DNA of 28,037 bases from a virus. A program made the translations under genes and the position numbers. The DNA lies in IMG/VR virus record IMGVR_UViG_3300045999_002802, positions 1 to 28,037 of that record; one strand, 5' to 3'. Under the pieces are notes generated by a model. It ran no database searches. It was not told where the DNA came from and worked only from the letters and a program-made list of their open reading frames with translations. Shown in pieces: positions 9,209 through 22,511 of this stretch (position 1 is its first letter; the number at the start of each line of letters is the position of its first letter).

Positions 9209-10258
9209 TTAATTGTGTACAAGGTGACCGCCAACATATTCATGCGAATAAGAAAATACCTTTCTTGATAACCATTTAACATTATTGTTAACAGGGTCAT
9301 TGCGCTCAATCATATTTTTGCTTGTTGGTTTCCATAGTGGAGAATTGTTGCGGTACTCTCCCATTCTTGGATGTGCTGTTTTGCTGAAGTATCTAAAACC
9401 CTGTTGCTTGTGTATTTCAGCAACCGCATCACTAAGCCTAACGCCTATTCCTAACCCTTGATAATCTGGAAGTACCACTGTTCTATGCCCCCTGTAAGCA
9501 TTTTTAACAGTGCCTGATGGGTATGCTATTGCGGAGGCAAATCCAACAACATTTGATCCCCAAGTGCAGAGCCAATGCTTTGCACTTTTATTGATGTCGT
9601 CTGTGAGATAGTGATGCTTGCTGAAGATTGACCACGACTCGACCCCACAAGGAAATATTTCCAAGTCAATTTGCTGTCGCCTAGCCGACCCCCTGTATGA
9701 CAACTTTTGTGTCAATGTATCGTATACCCAGTCAGGCTGTAACCAATCAATAATGTCGTAATGGCATGAAGCAAAAACTACATTCCTCAAGCCATATTGT
9801 TTTGCATATCGGTTGACTGCATTGGCGCACGACATTGCTACTGGCCTGTCTATTACGCTGGTAAATTCATCCACAATAGCACCAGACTTTAACTGCATTG
9901 CCAAATCAGCACGATATTTTTCACCAGTTGATAGGGCGTGATATGGCCTTAGCCACGCAGGTATGCTGTTTAAGCCGACTGCGGCCAACCTGCTTTGCGC
10001 CTCATCAGCAGTTTTAAAATGCGATGCTATGCACTTTTGGGAATCCCATTCAAACTTTGATTCATTGCCAAACTTTTGAAGCAAGGTAGATTTGCCACTA
10101 CCTGATGATCCAACAATCAATCCAATATTAAAATCATTGTTAACATGGAAGTCACTGATCTTTGTTTCTGTTGTTCCGTTAAACTGATAATCAAAAGCCC
10201 TGCATATTTCTTTCGTTATTTGATCTTCACTTACCGAAACGCGCAAAGTAGTTTCCAT
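9209..10258 (-). CDS. ABC-type ATPase fused to GNAT acetyltransferase (COG2401-like)
   Basis: 349 aa from ATG 10258, which has AAGGG upstream and lies 5 bases after the previous stop; the longer open frame to 10501 runs antiparallel-free through the neighbour and is not credible. ATPase half: Walker A GSSGSGKST (50-58), ABC signature LSTGEKYRADLA (109-120), Walker B GAIVDEF (126-132) with the D-loop, and switch His166 in FASCHYDIIDWLQPD. GNAT half from about 200: VVLPDYQGLGIGVRLSDAVA (261-280) with the QGLGIG acetyl-CoA loop. No membrane segment, so it is not a transporter. The fusion is known from cellular genomes; substrate unknown. Confidence 0.85.
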   Translation of the reverse strand: METTLRVSVSEDQITKEICRAFDYQFNGTTETKISDFHVNNDFNIGLIVGSSGSGKSTLLQKFGNESKFEWDSQKCIASHFKTADEAQSRLAAVGLNSIPAWLRPYHALSTGEKYRADLAMQLKSGAIVDEFTSVIDRPVAMSCANAVNRYAKQYGLRNVVFASCHYDIIDWLQPDWVYDTLTQKLSYRGSARRQQIDLEIFPCGVESWSIFSKHHYLTDDINKSAKHWLCTWGSNVVGFASAIAYPSGTVKNAYRGHRTVVLPDYQGLGIGVRLSDAVAEIHKQQGFRYFSKTAHPRMGEYRNNSPLWKPTSKNMIERNDPVNNNVKWLSRKVFSYSHEYVGGHLVHN

Positions 10259-10262
10259 GTTT

Positions 10263-10685
10263 TTACCCTTTTTCCTTACTAGGCCACAAAGGCAACGTGA
10301 TCCCGTGATGACCTGCGAACCGGCTGTGAATAACTTCATAAACTTGATTATATTCTGGCCTGTATGCCTCAGTTGTAGATTGCTTCCCGATAATGGCCTC
10401 CTGCACTGGTCGCCAGATGTTCTCCTTAACCGTGTCTTTACTCCACGGGATAGTCCACTGCTTACCAGTTGGCAGGTTGACCACCATCTCAAGCCCTGCA
10501 TCGTTTAATGCTTCTGCTACCCATTTGCACCACAAGTGCAGCGCATCGTTTTGAGCATCAGTGCGCTGTTGACCAGTTGAACACTTAAAGCTAACCCACT
10601 TGTGCTTCCGATAAAGCTCGGCAGCGTGAGCCAAGAAGCCTCCGAGTTTACTGTCAGAGTTGACTATCCACTGCTCACCACTCAT
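10263..10685 (-). CDS. Possible NinB-like recombination protein (140 aa)
   Basis: The ATG at 10685 overlaps the upstream stop as ATGA; a second ATG lies two codons earlier. Motifs: GQQRTDAQNDALHLWCKWVA, ALNDAGLEMVVN, IPWSKDTVKENIWRPVQEAI and EVYEVIHSRFAGHHG. This is a common phage protein of the early recombination region. The RTDAQN opening, size and position between P and NinG recall lambda NinB (Orf, a recombination mediator), but sequence similarity to NinB itself is weak as far as I can see. The assignment is tentative. Confidence 0.5.
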   Translation of the reverse strand: MSGEQWIVNSDSKLGGFLAHAAELYRKHKWVSFKCSTGQQRTDAQNDALHLWCKWVAEALNDAGLEMVVNLPTGKQWTIPWSKDTVKENIWRPVQEAIIGKQSTTEAYRPEYNQVYEVIHSRFAGHHGITLPLWPSKEKG

Positions 10686-11110: not shown

Positions 11111-11725
11111 TTATATTCCTAGGCTTCCGCGTAATTGCGACATCCGATCTTGATTTTCTTCTGGCGTTAAAATAACCGTAACTTTCTCAGGCAGTGCTTC
11201 CATCATTGGTGCGTCCAGCTTTTCGCCTTGCATTACTCGATCACAGTAACCAGCGTAAAAGGTTTTGAAGCGAGAATAAATTTGATCTTCAGCAAATGTC
11301 GCCAGCTCAAACCACCCAGTAGCCTTGCCAGCATGGTAGACAGCAGGATGTGACCACTTGTGCTTGGCTTTGGGACTGGGAGCCATGCAAGCCTCAATGT
11401 ATGCTTTCTTGACTTCTGGCAAACCAAAATCTTCAGGCTTCGGTTTGCAAAGCTCACGGAATATCGGCAGAGTAAAATAACCTGTATGGCTTAAAGCCTT
11501 AGATAATCCAACCTTAATTTGCCGATCACTCAGGTCTGACAAGCCTCGCGCCCATGTTTGGTAAACCTCTGGTGTCGGGTTGTTCAACAATCCCATCCTC
11601 GAAAGCTCCTGTAAAGCTGCCTTCAAAAACTGAGTCGTCAAAGTCTGATCCGAATGCTTGGTCTGCTGCGATTGCTGCTTTATCTCTGGTGTCACGTTGT
11701 TTAACAATTCTGCTGCTGATTTCAT
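11111..11725 (-). CDS. Replication protein P-like (helicase loader)
   Basis: 204 aa. Features of the lambda P family: helical N-terminus (FLKAALQELSRMGLL), ARGLSDLSDRQIKVGLSKAL, GYFTLPIFRELCKP, then LPEVKKAYIEAC, HKWSHPAVYHAGKATGWFEL and a C-terminal helix with CDRVMQGE. Lambda P brings host DnaB helicase to the O-origin complex. ATG 11725 has AGGAG nine bases upstream, so the long (200-nt) out-of-frame overlap with the O-like gene looks real. Confidence 0.8.
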   Translation of the reverse strand: MKSAAELLNNVTPEIKQQSQQTKHSDQTLTTQFLKAALQELSRMGLLNNPTPEVYQTWARGLSDLSDRQIKVGLSKALSHTGYFTLPIFRELCKPKPEDFGLPEVKKAYIEACMAPSPKAKHKWSHPAVYHAGKATGWFELATFAEDQIYSRFKTFYAGYCDRVMQGEKLDAPMMEALPEKVTVILTPEENQDRMSQLRGSLGI

Positions 11726-12416
11726 CTTCCCATCTCCTGTTTTTAAGCCATCGTTCTACGTGTTGAAAAGGCGCAAAGAATGATCCGTTTGCGTCCTGCA
11801 TACGCTTTACTGATAACTGTCTTTCAGCGGATGCGAGTATTAAATTAAATAACTGTTGATCAGGATTAATCCTGTTGAACTGTGCGAGTGCATTTTTCTT
11901 ACTGCCCTTTTCTCCATAAGAAGGATCAAAAGAGTTCCACAAAATTTCAAAACAAGCGAGCGACTGCGAGCGACTGTTGTTTTCCTTTCCCCTTCCCTGT
12001 TCCTTTCCCTGTTCCTTTCCTTTCCTTTCCTGTAGTGAGTCATCCGTGAATTGTGTATGAATACTCACTGAGTTTTCAGTGATATCAACTAAGTCCTTGA
12101 TTTTGCTTTTAGTTGGCCTGTTGATTACTTGATGCTTTAAAAAGTTAATGACATAGCCATAACTTTTGCCATCTAAGCCCGTGTGCAGAGAAATGTACTT
12201 AATTTGTGATAGCTGCATGAGCATTGTATGAATGCTCACTGAGGTTTCATTGAATGGGAAAACAGCGCCTTTTAATATTGCAGGGCTGGCTTTGAAGTAG
12301 CCTTGATCATCGGACTGGTTTAACAAGCCGATGGCTAAAAGCCTTGTCTCTGGAGGTAATTCTGCAAGCTCTTCATTAAGCCAAAATTCCGGCTTTACAG
12401 TTCTAATTCTAGGCAT
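11526..12416 (-). CDS. Replication protein O-like (origin-binding initiator)
   Basis: 296 aa. The N-terminal winged-helix domain begins MPRIRTVKPEFWLNEELAEL and continues through DDQGYFKASPAILKG. A charged linker (ERKGKEQGKEQGRGKENN, about 130-147) is followed by a second domain with FEILWNSFDPSYGEKGSKKN, FAPFQHVERWLKNRRWEDE and an acidic 60-residue tail. Such proteins bind iterons inside their own gene and recruit the helicase loader; the linker DNA holds repeats at 11956-12031. The ribosome site is weak (GGA). The tail is the part overlapping the P-like gene. Confidence 0.8.
   Translation of the reverse strand: MPRIRTVKPEFWLNEELAELPPETRLLAIGLLNQSDDQGYFKASPAILKGAVFPFNETSVSIHTMLMQLSQIKYISLHTGLDGKSYGYVINFLKHQVINRPTKSKIKDLVDITENSVSIHTQFTDDSLQERKGKEQGKEQGRGKENNSRSQSLACFEILWNSFDPSYGEKGSKKNALAQFNRINPDQQLFNLILASAERQLSVKRMQDANGSFFAPFQHVERWLKNRRWEDEISSRIVKQRDTRDKAAIAADQAFGSDFDDSVFEGSFTGAFEDGIVEQPDTRGLPNMGARLVRPE
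11956..12031. repeat. Candidate replication origin: direct repeats and polypyrimidine tract inside the O-like gene
   Basis: GCGAGCGACT is repeated in tandem at 11956-11965 and 11966-11975. Next comes a pyrimidine-only plus strand broken by a few Gs (11980-12031), including a tandem 12-mer CCCTGTTCCTTT at 11995-12006 and 12007-12018 and then TTTCC repeats. Lambda ori lies in the same place, in the middle of O as iterons plus an easily opened tract. Whether this is the origin is inference. Confidence 0.5.
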
Positions 12417-12424
12417 GGTATAAT
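12395..12424 (+). promoter_or_regulatory. Extended -10 promoter for an antisense RNA
   Basis: On the plus strand TGGTATAAT (12416-12424) is a perfect extended -10 (TGnTATAAT). A weak -35 (TTACAG, 12395-12400) sits 18 bp upstream. It overlaps the O-like start codon on the other strand and points towards a terminator only about 20 bp past the expected start site. Confidence 0.65.
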
Positions 12425-12430
12425 TCCAAC

Positions 12431-12490
12431 CTGTAATGTGTGTTGAAGCCGTATGAGTCCCGTCAGAAGGTCATGCGGCTTTGTTTTTTA
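12431..12490 (+). ncRNA. OOP-like antisense RNA (about 60 nt), predicted
   Basis: A transcript starting about 7 nt after the TATAAT at 12419-12424 would end at the hairpin and U tract at 12446-12489, giving roughly 58-60 nt with no ORF. Its 3' end is complementary to the last 20 nt of the ribbon-helix-helix gene, and its 5' part lies in the gap before the O-like gene. Lambda OOP RNA has the same geometry: antisense to the 3' end of cII, from a promoter just ahead of O. Position and signals are seen; the function is inferred. Confidence 0.6.
12446..12489 (+). terminator. Rho-independent terminator (plus strand)
   Basis: AAGCCGTATGA (12446-12456) pairs with TCATGCGGCTT (12471-12481) over 11 positions with one mismatch and a 14-nt loop, followed by TGTTTTTT. 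The U tract is present only on the plus strand, where there is no protein gene; on the minus strand the hairpin is followed by CAACACAC, so it is not a terminator for the early operon. Confidence 0.8.
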
Positions 12491-12629
12491 ACGCTTCCTC
12501 TGCAAGACAACTCAGCATGTTTGAAAAGCTGCGCTTTTCGCTCTCAGCCAGCAGCTTGATCTGTTCAATCAAATTTGCAGGTATTGTCACTGATATCTTC
12601 TTTGTGTTCATGTCGTAATTATCGCTCAT
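12471..12629 (-). CDS. Ribbon-helix-helix (Arc/CopG-like) regulator (52 aa)
   Basis: Start at ATG 12629 (AGAGGGTAGGATA upstream) rather than the longer frame to 12680. After MSDNYDMNTKK comes the RHH strand KISVTIPANLIEQIKLLAES, then EKRSFSNMLSCLAEEALKNK. Small RHH proteins act as dimeric repressors or activators. It occupies the position that cII has in lambda (between the first early gene and O), and its 3' end is covered by the predicted antisense RNA, so it may be the regulated switch. Confidence 0.75.
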   Translation of the reverse strand: MSDNYDMNTKKISVTIPANLIEQIKLLAESEKRSFSNMLSCLAEEALKNKAA

Positions 12630-12633
12630 TATC

Positions 12634-12948
12634 CTACCCTCTGCAACTTTGTTTTGGTCTCTCAAACACTCTGCCGTCAAACTGGGTCAGGTAAAGCCTG
12701 CCATTGCATTCCATCATCTTAAAATGACCGCTGGCATAAGCTCTGACTGGTGTAGCCAGATCAACGCCACGGCGCGGTAGGTAGACAGTGTAGATGTCGT
12801 ACCGAGTACCCTTATAAGCTGCCAGGCGACCAGTCGGCCTGTACTTGTCTGGCTGCATCGTGTTTAAACTAAGCCACGGGTCTTGCGCCTTGGTGTCCTC
12901 TGGTTCCAAACTGGCTGTCCAGTCTAAGTTGTAGCCTCGCTCTCTCAC
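12634..12948 (-). CDS. Hypothetical first early gene (104 aa)
   Basis: GTG start at 12948 with GAGGATATAAA upstream, nearly the same leader as the divergent gene at 13085. The protein is aromatic and basic: TGRLAAYKGTRYDIYTVYLP, RAYASGHFKMMECNGRLYLT. The stop lies 4 bp from the next start. It lies in the position of lambda cro but shows no HTH; I do not recognise the family. Confidence 0.65.
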   Translation of the reverse strand: MRERGYNLDWTASLEPEDTKAQDPWLSLNTMQPDKYRPTGRLAAYKGTRYDIYTVYLPRRGVDLATPVRAYASGHFKMMECNGRLYLTQFDGRVFERPKQSCRG

Positions 12949-12972
12949 TTTATATCCTCGATCTTGTTAATT

Positions 12973-13058
12973 GTTCGCTAATCAAAGCACACTATTTTAT
13001 CAAAGTAAACCTCATTTGTGCTTTACATAAGGCACAATAAGTGCTTAAATGTGCGAAC
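12973..13058. promoter_or_regulatory. Divergent early promoters with three 18-bp operators
   Basis: Three related 18-bp sites: O1 12973-12990 GTTCGCTAATCAAAGCAC; O2 13018-13035 GTGCTTTACATAAGGCAC; O3 13041-13058 GTGCTTAAATGTGCGAAC (O3 inverted matches the GTTCGC-N6-AAGCAC form of O1). Leftward promoter: -35 TTTACT (plus 13004-13009), 17 bp, -10 TTTGAT inside O1. Rightward promoter: -35 TTTACA (13022-13027, inside O2), 17 bp, -10 TTAAAT (13045-13050, inside O3). A protein on these sites would block both. Confidence 0.7.
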
Positions 13059-18354: not shown

Positions 18355-18567
18355 TCACACTGGCTGCGTAGGCCACTCTACAGTTGCTGGGAAGCCTTCC
18401 TGTGCGCTGATGTCTCTTAATGCTTGGCGGTAGGTAGCCCAGGCTGCTTTGTCTACAGGAGCATCAGCTACCTGTGTCCAGTCTGATGCTGACAGTAGCT
18501 TGTTGCGCCTCTTGCGAGCATTGGCTGACTGCACAATGCTCTCTAACTCGACTTGGCTATGTTTCAT
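18355..18567 (-). CDS. Tail fibre assembly chaperone (Phage_tail_APC-like)
   Basis: 70 aa. The pattern RKRRNKLLSASDWTQVADAP, then VDKAAWATYRQALRDISAQE and GFPATVEWPTQP matches the small assembly-chaperone domain that usually follows tail fibre genes or is fused to their C-terminus. The start shares a TAATG with the fibre stop. It probably helps folding or attachment of the long fibre encoded just upstream. Confidence 0.8.
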   Translation of the reverse strand: MKHSQVELESIVQSANARKRRNKLLSASDWTQVADAPVDKAAWATYRQALRDISAQEGFPATVEWPTQPV

Positions 18568-21500
18568 TACACCACCCTCACTTTATAGTTACCTGCGATC
18601 AATGCTGTAATCCTTGCCTTATCACCTGCTGGAGCGTCAAAGTCGTAGTCAGTGCCTAAGATAGCTCCCTCGTTTAAGACGTTAGCATCGTAGTTAATTG
18701 ATACACCGTTGGATGACGGCACTGTTGTTCCGCTGGTCAAATTAAAGATGATGGCTAGGTCAAAGTCGTTACCCAGTGTTATTTGATTTGGGTCAGTGAC
18801 AGCGTCTAGTTGAGTCTTGTTCATCTGGTTTGGGTACGATGTTGAGCCAAGTGAATATTGGTTAACATCAAAGCCAATTTGCCCAGTAATAAACATTTTA
18901 GTTCCATCAGGGCTGAAGGCTAGATGCTGCGGCGATGTATCTTCTGAAGCGACAGAAAACAACTGAGTAAAGCTTGCCGTTGATACATCAAAGCCAGTAG
19001 ATAACGCATACTCGTTAACGTCATCGCCTGTGGTTCCAAGAATAAACATCTTTGTTCCATCAGTGTTAAAAGCAATTCCTTGCGGACTGTTTTCTTGGGA
19101 TGCAACACTGAAGCTGTCTACAAATGAGGCAGTAGAAATGTTAAATGCAGTCGATAACGTATACTCGTTAACGTCATCGCCAGAAACGCCAACAACAAAC
19201 ATCTTAGTGCCGGTGGTGTTAAAAGCCACACCTCTTGCGTCTGTTTCCTGAGCTGTTACATCAAGAGACTGAATATAACTTGCTGTTGAAACATTAAACC
19301 CAGTTGACAATGTGTATTCAAGAATCGCACTAGCTACACTATCAACAACAAACATTTTTGTTCCAGCAGGATTAAATGTTAAACCGCCAGGGGAAGTTGT
19401 TTGAGCCGATACAGAAAACACTCGGACATAACTTGCTGTTGATACATCAAACCCAGTAGAAAGGCTGTACTCATTAACGTCATCTCCATCATTGCCAACA
19501 ATAAACATCTTCGTGCCAGTAGAGTTAAAGGCTATGCCTTTTGGTGTAGTATCTTGTGCCGATACTGAAAAAGCCTGCGTAAAACTTGCCGTAGAAACAT
19601 CAAACGTACCCACAAGACTACTAGCTCCCTCCATAGCCTGAGCCAATGCCGGTAACTCAGCATTCGTTGTGGCGTTAGTCCAGGTCTCTGAAGCGTATGT
19701 GCCGTTCGAGTTGTACTGCCATGTGCCTGCGTTATTCCTGACAATGTCTCTAGCACCCAGCGTCTCACTTACAACTGTGTAACTGATGCGGTTGTCGTTT
19801 GATAGGGCGTATAGGACTTTGCCGCTACCAGCAGACTCGTTAGCAGTCATGTCGTTGATGTCGATCCAGTAGGTGGTGTCTATAGAGGCTTTAGTGTGTA
19901 CTGGTTGGTAGCCTGATGTGATGAATGCTGAACCTGTTGAGTACTCGTTTACATCGTCTCCACTACGGCCAACAATAAACATTTTAGTCCCATCAGTGCT
20001 GAACGCTATTGCTTCTGGATTACTCTCCTGCGCCGATACAGAAAACAATCGTGTGAAACTTGCTGTGGACACATCAAAGCCTGTGCTTAATGTGTATTCA
20101 TTAACATCATCGCCAGTATCGCCGACAATAAACATCTTCGTACCGTTAGTATTAAAAGCTATGCCTCTTGGCTCTGTTTCTTGTGCCGATACACTAAACG
20201 AATCAACAAAAGTAGCTGTTGATACATCGAAACCTGTTGATAACGTATATTCGTTAACATCTACTCCAGCAGAGCCGACAATAAACATTTTAGTGCCGTT
20301 GGTGTTAAAGGCTATGTCTTGAGGAATTGTTTCTTGCGCTGACACTGAGAACGCATCAACGAATGAGGCTGTGCTTACATCAAATCCTGTAGATAATGTG
20401 TACTCGTTAACATCATCGCCATCTGAACCTACAATAAACATTTTAGTTCCGTTGGTGTTAAAGGCTAATCCTGTTGGATTTATTTCTTGCGCTGACACAG
20501 AAAACGCATCTACAAAACTTGCTGTGCTTACATTAAATCCAGTTGATAGCGTGTATTCGTTAACATCATCTCCGTCAAAACCTACAATGAACATCTTTGT
20601 GCCATCAGTGTTAAAAGCTATTCCTGTTGGATTTATTTCTTGTGCCGACACAGAGAACGTCTGCGTAAAACTAGCTACCGTCAAATCAAACCCGTTTACA
20701 TACCCACTCAACTCCAGATCACCATCAACAGCGTTATACACTACACCGTACATGTCCCAGTCACCTGATGCGACTTGATTGTAGGATGTAGGTGCAGTGG
20801 TCTCTACAAATGCTCCACTTGTAGCTGTGAGGACAAATACACCGCTGTTGGCTTCAATCGTCTTGCCTACGTCTGCTGAGACGAATGAGCCTGTGCCTAG
20901 TGCTATGGTTGCAACGTCTAGTGTGTACTCGTTAACATCGTCACCGGTAACACCCACAATAAACATCTTAGTACCGCTAGGATTAAAAGCTATTGCCCAC
21001 GGGTCATTTTCTTGTGAGGATATTGAAAATAACTTAACAAAAGTTGCGGTCGATACATCAAACCCAGTAGACAGGCTATATTGATTTACTTCTTGCCCAG
21101 CACCTACAATAAACATCTTTGTGCCGTCAGCATTAAAAGCTAATCCTTTCGGGTCTGAATCTTGTGCAGATACACTAAAGCTATCTACAAAGGTTGCTGT
21201 TGAAATGTTAAACCCAGTGGACAAAGTATATTCATTTACGTCCAAGCCGCCCCCGCCAACAACAAACATTTTAGTGCCGTCAGGGCTGAAGGCCAGTCCT
21301 TGAGGATAAAGGTCTTGCGCGGATACTGAAAACAGTCTTGTAAAACTTGCTGTAGATATATCAAACCCTGTCGATAAGGCATACTCGTTAACGTCAACAC
21401 CAGTTGCGCCAACAATAAACATCTTAGTGCCATCAGCGTTAAAACAAAGCCCTGTTGGGTTTGTATCTTGTGAATTGACTGAAAACAACTGCGTAAAGGT

Positions 21501-22511
21501 AGCTGTCGAGACATCAAATGACGCTGATAAAGCGTACTCATTTATATCCTTACCAGCAACGCCAGTAATAAACATCTTAGTTCCGCTAGGATTAAATGCT
21601 ATTCCCTTTGGTGCAGTATCTTGAGCCGACACACTAAACGCATCTACAAACACTGAAGTAGAAACATCAAACCCAACAAAGTTCAACGTAGTCGCAGGCG
21701 CACTGTTCAACCTTTCATAGTTTTCAGTTGTCGAGTTTACATCCCACTCATTATTGGTTACGCCTGTCTGTGGCACTTCTTTCGTCACGCTTACCACGGG
21801 TGTCAGCACTGTCTTAGTCAGGCTGATTGTAGACAGCTCATTTGCTGTGAACGTCTTGGTCAGCGTACCCAGCGTTGCGTTTGTGTCAATGGTTGCGTAC
21901 TCAAGCCCTGTAGCACCTGAGTTAACAACTAGAGCCTGACCAGCAGTGCCGAGTGTAGATAAGCCTGTGCCGCCTTTAGCAGTGGTCAGTGTGCCTGTGG
22001 TTTGTGTCGCCAGGTTAATTGTTGTGGCGATTGCTGCGGTATCTTGAAACGCTGCGCCGTTATAAACGCGCATGGCAGTTGTCGATGTGTTGAAGTAAAT
22101 AGCACCTGTCACCAGAGCATTGCCATCATTATCAAGTGTCGGGTCTGATGCCTTAGCACCTAAGAACCTATCATCAAACAAGTCATAACTCGCAGCAGCG
22201 TTATTAGCCGCAGTTGTTGCCGTTGAGGCACTGGCAGATGCAGAGCTTGCAGAGCCTGATGCCGCACTAGCAGAAGCGGTTGCACTTGATGCAGAGCCGG
22301 TGGCAGAGCTTGCACTTGCTGCCGCGTTAGTTGCGTTTGTGTTGACCTCGCCAGCAACAGTATTGACTTGCCCTGACCATGTGTTTGTTGCAGTGATTAC
22401 AGCAGGCAGTGATGTGCCGTATAAAGTATCTGCGCGACTATCAAAGTTTGCTGGGTCACTTGTTAACGGTGGTGAACCTAGACTTGGAATGCTTTGCGTT
22501 ATTGTAGTCAT
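18567..22511 (-). CDS. Large receptor-binding tail fibre with 15 beta-propeller-like blades
   Basis: 1314 aa. About residues 1-280: a Ser/Ala coiled stretch (SASSATGSASSATASASAAS), then a fibre-like domain (DDRFLGAKASDPTLDNDGNA, GAIYFNTSTTAMRVYNG). Residues about 281-1225 hold fifteen ~51-residue repeats with core NPTGIAFNTDGTKMFIVG and DVNEYTLSTGF, in three arrays of five, separated by about 72-aa (GKTIEANSGVFVLTATSGAF) and 108-aa (TTYWIDINDMTANESAGSGK) domains. The C-terminus (MNKTQLDAVTDPNQITLGND) is non-repeated. The repeats resemble NHL/YVTN-type propeller blades. A chaperone gene follows. Host binding is inferred. Confidence 0.85.
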   Translation of the reverse strand: MTTITQSIPSLGSPPLTSDPANFDSRADTLYGTSLPAVITATNTWSGQVNTVAGEVNTNATNAAASASSATGSASSATASASAASGSASSASASASTATTAANNAAASYDLFDDRFLGAKASDPTLDNDGNALVTGAIYFNTSTTAMRVYNGAAFQDTAAIATTINLATQTTGTLTTAKGGTGLSTLGTAGQALVVNSGATGLEYATIDTNATLGTLTKTFTANELSTISLTKTVLTPVVSVTKEVPQTGVTNNEWDVNSTTENYERLNSAPATTLNFVGFDVSTSVFVDAFSVSAQDTAPKGIAFNPSGTKMFITGVAGKDINEYALSASFDVSTATFTQLFSVNSQDTNPTGLCFNADGTKMFIVGATGVDVNEYALSTGFDISTASFTRLFSVSAQDLYPQGLAFSPDGTKMFVVGGGGLDVNEYTLSTGFNISTATFVDSFSVSAQDSDPKGLAFNADGTKMFIVGAGQEVNQYSLSTGFDVSTATFVKLFSISSQENDPWAIAFNPSGTKMFIVGVTGDDVNEYTLDVATIALGTGSFVSADVGKTIEANSGVFVLTATSGAFVETTAPTSYNQVASGDWDMYGVVYNAVDGDLELSGYVNGFDLTVASFTQTFSVSAQEINPTGIAFNTDGTKMFIVGFDGDDVNEYTLSTGFNVSTASFVDAFSVSAQEINPTGLAFNTNGTKMFIVGSDGDDVNEYTLSTGFDVSTASFVDAFSVSAQETIPQDIAFNTNGTKMFIVGSAGVDVNEYTLSTGFDVSTATFVDSFSVSAQETEPRGIAFNTNGTKMFIVGDTGDDVNEYTLSTGFDVSTASFTRLFSVSAQESNPEAIAFSTDGTKMFIVGRSGDDVNEYSTGSAFITSGYQPVHTKASIDTTYWIDINDMTANESAGSGKVLYALSNDNRISYTVVSETLGARDIVRNNAGTWQYNSNGTYASETWTNATTNAELPALAQAMEGASSLVGTFDVSTASFTQAFSVSAQDTTPKGIAFNSTGTKMFIVGNDGDDVNEYSLSTGFDVSTASYVRVFSVSAQTTSPGGLTFNPAGTKMFVVDSVASAILEYTLSTGFNVSTASYIQSLDVTAQETDARGVAFNTTGTKMFVVGVSGDDVNEYTLSTAFNISTASFVDSFSVASQENSPQGIAFNTDGTKMFILGTTGDDVNEYALSTGFDVSTASFTQLFSVASEDTSPQHLAFSPDGTKMFITGQIGFDVNQYSLGSTSYPNQMNKTQLDAVTDPNQITLGNDFDLAIIFNLTSGTTVPSSNGVSINYDANVLNEGAILGTDYDFDAPAGDKARITALIAGNYKVRVV
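18843..19604 (-). repeat. Blade array 3 (five ~153-bp repeats)
   Basis: GTKMF motifs near 19502, 19350, 19196, 19043 and 18890. The second blade is irregular (FVVDSVASAILEYTL lacks the DDVN turn) and the third has a shifted core (LDVTAQETDARGVAFN). Confidence 0.85.
19932..20690 (-). repeat. Blade array 2 (five ~153-bp repeats)
   Basis: GTKMF motifs near 20590, 20437, 20281, 20131 and 19978. The most uniform array: four of five blades share FNTNGTKMFIVG or FNTDGTKMFIVG and VNEYTLSTG almost exactly. Confidence 0.85.
20920..21671 (-). repeat. Blade array 1 (five ~153-bp repeats)
   Basis: GTKMF motifs near 21570, 21417, 21267, 21113 and 20960 at a ~153-bp period. The blades share protein sequence (FDVSTATF, GTKMFIVG, NEYTLS) but use many different synonymous codons, so the copies are old or selected at protein level. 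Most diverged of the three arrays. Confidence 0.85.

Follow-up and report, generated by a model that had tools for sequence, protein, structure and literature searches.

Phage lambda, phage P22 and plasmid pMV158 share an arrangement in which a small regulator gene is followed by a gap encoding an antisense RNA and then by a second gene, at the start of which lies the promoter of that RNA. The arrangement is known above all from certain bacterial plasmids, whose copy number it controls. In pMV158, the 48-nt RNAII, in which a 5' tail of 17 nt precedes a terminator hairpin, prevents translation of repB (PMC4485353). It lies between copG and repB and acts just upstream of the atypical repB ribosome site (PMC4485353; PMC5703833). 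In the sequence of pSMQ172, a plasmid of the pMV158 family, a 60-nt gap separates copG from rep. An antisense TATAAT lies 4 nt from the start codon of rep, and a hairpin is followed by a T run at the copG stop. In P22, sar blocks the ant ribosome site (PMC7968456), and in the P22 sequence it fills the arc-ant gap exactly. The oop RNA of lambda shares 52 nt with cII and promotes a decay of the cII message that depends on RNase III (PMC5869508). Its promoter pO, which reads TGTCATAAT in the lambda sequence and overlaps the CAT of the O start codon, has an activity that also tunes replication (PMC3985674). Besides these, the Bacillus subtilis RNA ArrA is antisense to dnaA and lowers dnaA expression (PMC12112137).

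The locus considered here lies in a 28,037-nt stretch of viral DNA (IMG/VR record IMGVR_UViG_3300045999_002802), hereafter the window. A ribbon-helix-helix (RHH) gene (12471..12629, minus strand; Pfam RHH_5, E 9e-11) encodes 52 aa from the ATG at 12629, or a 46-aa core of CopG size from an inner ATG at 12611. Profile comparison gave CopG as the best PDB match (1b01/2cpg, E 0.004), followed by Arc and Mnt. With an HMM of the RHH proteins, the next matches beyond the family were CopG of pSMQ172 and then P22 Mnt and Arc (all from fetched sequences). Downstream on the same strand is an O-like replication initiator gene of 296 aa (11526..12416, minus strand; PHROG 1408 replication initiation protein, E 1e-33), with its start codon at 12416-12414, and a lambda-P-like gene follows the initiator (11111-11725). 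The O-like gene contains a 29-nt direct repeat (90%; 12054-12082 and 12225-12253) and an inverted repeat near 12207-12249. The 29-nt pair may represent origin iterons; the repeat also encodes a repeated SVSIHT peptide. Ahead of the inner RHH ATG, a weak TTGCAG-17-GATAAT (12618..12646, minus strand) is a possible promoter of the RHH-initiator operon itself. Its score alone is unremarkable, but four RHH alleles have a -10-like hexamer at this position, 6-7 nt upstream of that ATG.

An earlier note on this DNA had proposed an antisense RNA similar to lambda OOP in the gap between the two genes. The perfect extended -10 that it described is present on the plus strand as TGGTATAAT (12416..12424), overlapping the O-like start codon, with the TATAAT hexamer at 12419-12424. 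Pattern counting found TGnTATAAT once on the two strands of the window, where 0.6 sites would be expected by chance in first-order Markov sequences of the same composition; an extended -10 with a terminator-like hairpin within about 110 nt is expected 0.005 times per window in Markov simulation. No well-placed -35 was found ahead of the window's -10 (TTTACA at 12394-12399 leaves a 19-nt spacer), and the promoter is therefore assigned to the extended -10 type. The generic promoter and terminator scan missed both elements, since it accepts only promoters with a -35 and loops no longer than 8 nt.

The intrinsic terminator stem-loop (12445..12482, plus strand) has 12 pairs, formed by the arms GAAGCCGTATGA and TCATGCGGCTTT, and a 14-nt loop. 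Its T tract, TTTGTTTTTT (12480..12489, plus strand), overlaps the RHH codons K-N-K. The hairpin and T tract of the earlier note thus stand, although its count of 11 positions with one mismatch needs correction: there are 12 pairs, and the supposed mismatch, at pair 8, becomes a U.G wobble in RNA from the plus strand and would be A.C on the minus strand. As had been claimed, promoter and terminator oppose the early transcript, both being on the plus strand and the RHH and O-like genes on the minus strand. With +1 assumed 7 nt after the -10, the predicted antisense RNA is about 59 nt long (12431..12489, plus strand, from the promoter and terminator positions; the covariance model matches 12415-12490). 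It would have an unstructured 5' tail of about 14 nt, a hairpin and a U-rich 3' end (dG about -18.7 kcal/mol). This RNA would cover the 54-nt gap between the RHH and initiator genes, except for the last 14 nt or so before the initiator ATG. Ending near 12489, it would overlap about 19 nt of the RHH gene, whose stop codon is at 12473-12471 (minus strand), which agrees with the 20 nt given earlier. From these features we infer that the RNA is transcribed, and its existence is considered highly probable.

The RHH protein is encoded by 13 viral contigs, and the cassette was found in all 13. Three of them (L064, L067 and L073) are identical to the window at the cassette, leaving about nine distinct versions. 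The cassettes combine four RHH alleles, 40-98% identical to that of the window, with three initiator types: O-like, DUF1376-like (L065, L066, L068, L070 and L071; a label given by resemblance only) and a hybrid in L091. Across these combinations the -10, the spacing, the stem and the T tract are retained. The -10 is TGnTATAAT in the relatives and TGGTACAAT in the most distant one, L009, in each case at a distance of 2-3 nt from the start codon. The assumed RNA 5' end falls 14-15 nt before the initiator ATG in nine of nine cassettes, for which folds predict RNAs of 57-61 nt. In L091 (contig 3300046000_003730, 2140-3040), a DUF1376-like N-terminal half is joined to the O-like C-terminal half of the window's initiator, an apparent domain swap beside the conserved antisense cassette. 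Sequence and conservation together establish the promoter, the terminator, their strand and extent, and the linkage to the RHH gene.

The cassette is absent from more than 100 initiator loci that lack this RHH gene. The covariance model found nothing comparable in the remaining O-like loci or in 79 loci that have the other initiator type and lack the RHH gene. Since the model matches none of the RHH-less initiator loci, the cassette tracks the RHH gene and not the initiator, for which shared descent of adjacent sequences can be enough. Only metagenomic relatives were usable, because sequenced phages gave no match in DNA comparison or in a search with the upstream 104-aa protein. Several candidates outside the family were set aside. 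L080, the lone extra-family match of a second DNA pattern scan, lacks the rest of the cassette. Hairpins ahead of other initiators (L031, L047/L078 and L096/L097) were not counted, having neither an antisense extended -10 nor an RHH gene of the family. Marinomonas phage P12026 and Enterobacter phage Tyrion carry relatives of O, but in their annotations the upstream genes run directly up to the initiator, so that there is no gap for a cassette.

Covariation of the hairpin and -10 in related phages had been named in the earlier note as a check on its proposal. When this was looked at, two stem pairs were found to covary: one changes from A-U to C-G, and another occurs as U.G, U-A and C-G. This covariation is modest, as just two stem pairs vary; most relatives are close and four cassette copies including the window's are identical, so that independent changes are few. 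All 96 of 96 pair cells in eight aligned versions are standard on the plus strand. The plus-strand RNA is fully paired in every version, and its minus-strand counterpart loses 1-2 pairs in each. A functional hairpin on the sense (minus) strand was accordingly rejected, the stem losing pairs there and no T run following it. A covariance model trained without L009 gave a full-length match to L009 at the syntenic place, with an E value of only about 0.1, and no match outside the training family was better. These data also bear on the view that the cassette is chance sequence or a recombination linker giving no RNA. The cassette does sit where RHH alleles and initiator types are swapped, and could persist there as a homologous joint. 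However, a linker has no need for wobble and compensatory changes, or for a -10 kept amid changed flanks, and the chance expectation per window given above is low; this explanation is regarded as very remote.

The locus is best read as a compact replication-control cassette that joins three genes, for a CopG/Arc-like RHH repressor, an antisense RNA and a phage replication initiator, and in which the RNA most likely reduces initiator translation. This reading is given a probability of about 0.5, and it is about an even chance that the initiator is the main target of the RNA. The RHH and initiator genes would be transcribed leftward, probably as a single message. Driven by the extended -10 promoter over the initiator start codon, the RNA would cross the gap backwards and stop over the last RHH codons. 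Its pairing with the RHH-initiator message would extend to some 14 nt short of the initiator ATG and take in a weak Shine-Dalgarno region. A duplex there should hinder ribosome entry and lower initiator translation, as RNAII does on repB and sar on ant. By analogy, autorepression of the operon by the RHH protein is probable. Cleavage of the duplex by RNase III could also occur, lowering RHH expression as OOP does for cII, and the net effect would be that initiator synthesis is held down or timed. The best Shine-Dalgarno-like bases, read by eye (AGG, GGGA, GGG and GAG), lie under the assumed RNA 5' end, and they are unusually distant from the ATG, the spacer being taken up by the antisense -10. 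Several points count against this reading. The window's extended -10 has no good -35, and most of the relatives that keep the cassette are close. The recognisable Shine-Dalgarno bases are reached just by the very 5' end of an RNA whose +1 is assumed. In addition, the RHH coding end is overlapped here, whereas RNAII does not overlap copG and sar barely overlaps arc, which leaves room for an effect like that of OOP.

Such an effect as the main function is possible but rather unlikely. In this case the duplex formed by the RNA with the RHH 3' end and the gap would be cut by RNase III, and the RHH message would be lost to decay while that of the initiator stayed intact. The promoter is placed as lambda pO, and the RNA overlaps the RHH 3' end. 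The overlap of about 19 nt is short compared with the 52 nt in lambda; nevertheless, the lambda RNase III cut lies 12 nt outside cII (PMC5869508), so that a short overlap suffices. Between RHH alleles, third codon positions are better kept in the overlapped tail (about 0.62-0.75) than in the rest of the gene (0.46-0.56). The terminator alone could explain the conserved tail codons, however, and comparisons within a single RHH allele do not consistently show better conservation in the tail than in the body. Moreover, the RHH protein is not a CII protein, and in pMV158 and P22, whose layouts include an RHH gene, it is the downstream gene that the antisense RNA targets. The claim of the earlier note that the lambda circuit is kept, with an RHH protein in place of cII, finds no support here. 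The RHH protein is CopG/Arc-like, and neither an integrase (PF00589) nor an HTH_3-type repressor (PF01381) was found in the window or in any of eight related records, none of them complete. Control of initiator translation is favoured over decay of the RHH message, the two not being mutually exclusive.

In a further explanation the RNA itself would matter little: firing of the antisense promoter beside the origin would hamper the leftward early transcript and tune initiation, as in lambda pR/pO. In lambda, regulation of replication by pO activity does not require oop RNA in trans (PMC3985674), and the 29-nt repeat pair in the O-like gene could be the iterons of such an origin. The covarying stem is left unexplained, unless termination alone is needed, and three initiator types share the cassette, which tracks the RHH gene rather than the initiator; promoter interference is accordingly held to be improbable. 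The unstructured 14-nt tail, together with a loop that is largely kept in close relatives, would also fit a small RNA acting in trans on another phage or host message, or a terminator that merely blocks stray rightward transcription. The loop, however, is altered in L091 and L009, a promoter directly upstream would be purposeless for insulation alone, and the cassette is always in the RHH-initiator gap. These functions are therefore judged more improbable still.

Other features of the window were recorded alongside the cassette. The divergent early promoter region contains an inverted repeat, AAGCACA...TGTGCTT (12970-13038), with similar motifs in relatives. It is a possible repressor operator and does not track the RHH allele. 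RHH operators were sought in the divergent region and none could be assigned, the region likewise not following the RHH allele. The protein encoded at 9209-10501 (minus strand; PHROG 11143, function unknown) combines an ATPase/P-loop part with one of the GNAT acetyltransferase kind. A 1314-aa tail-region protein (18567-22511, minus strand) has many repeats of about 50 residues (FSVSAQDTxPxGIAFNxxGTKMFIVGxxGDDVNEY) and is probably propeller-like.

It can be speculated that this group of tailed phages brakes its own initiator in plasmid style, with a CopG-like repressor and an RNAII-like RNA, possibly as a low-copy plasmid prophage that is not integrated, and that the brake is a portable cassette joined to at least three initiators. 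The proposal is doubtful. The plasmid-prophage markers ParA (PF13614) and ParB (PF02195) were not found in the window or the eight related records, all incomplete. No phage case combining an RHH gene, an antisense RNA and an initiator was found in the literature searched, which is not proof of absence. If the cassette acts in the way proposed, one three-part logic of small repressor, antisense RNA and target gene would operate in lambdoid-type replication regions and in rolling-circle plasmids, and OOP, sar and RNAII would stand as variants of one arrangement. It would also suggest a means by which an uncultivated phage, in which an integrase has yet to be found, could restrain its own replication. 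A simple signature with which metagenomic phages can be searched for such RNAs is provided by an antisense extended -10 over the initiator start codon.

Among the described systems, the closest layout is copG-RNAII-repB of pMV158, with arc-sar-ant of P22 second. As in pMV158, a CopG-like RHH gene, whose product is closest to CopG, lies directly upstream of the initiator on the same strand. The gap holds a predicted RNA with a 5' tail and a terminator hairpin (57-61 nt vs 48 nt) that starts from a promoter at the initiator start and ends around the RHH stop codon. Unlike in pMV158, the initiator is phage O-like or DUF1376-like, with a P-like partner in the window, and not a rolling-circle Rep_2 protein; the genome is that of a tailed phage and not a plasmid, and the predicted RNA runs about 19 nt into the RHH gene. 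The immI region of P22 likewise has a phage-borne RHH gene, an antisense RNA (about 70 nt in P22) that fills the gap, a terminator at the RHH stop codon and a promoter inside the start of the downstream gene. That gene is the antirepressor ant in P22 and a replication initiator here, and the overlap with the RHH gene is 2 nt there and about 19 nt here. ArrA resembles the present RNA in lying ahead of a replication initiator gene, but it is chromosomal and, as described, involves no RHH gene. With lambda OOP the locus shares an extended -10 over the O or O-like start codon directed against early transcription, a short terminated RNA overlapping the 3' end of the upstream regulator gene, and an O-like gene downstream. 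The geometry proposed in the earlier note was borne out in this respect, lambda pO lying likewise over the O start codon and oop covering the 3' end of the upstream gene. Unlike in lambda, the upstream protein is an RHH protein (Pfam RHH_5; CopG/Arc/Mnt in PDB) and not an activator of the cII family, the overlap is smaller, a search of Rfam gave no match, and the incomplete records yielded neither the integrase nor the repressor sought. The label "OOP-like" is therefore right for the geometry and too narrow for the locus, which is pMV158-like in the kind of both neighbours and in the anatomy of the RNA, lambda-like in its O-like gene, and P22-like in being a phage with an RHH gene.
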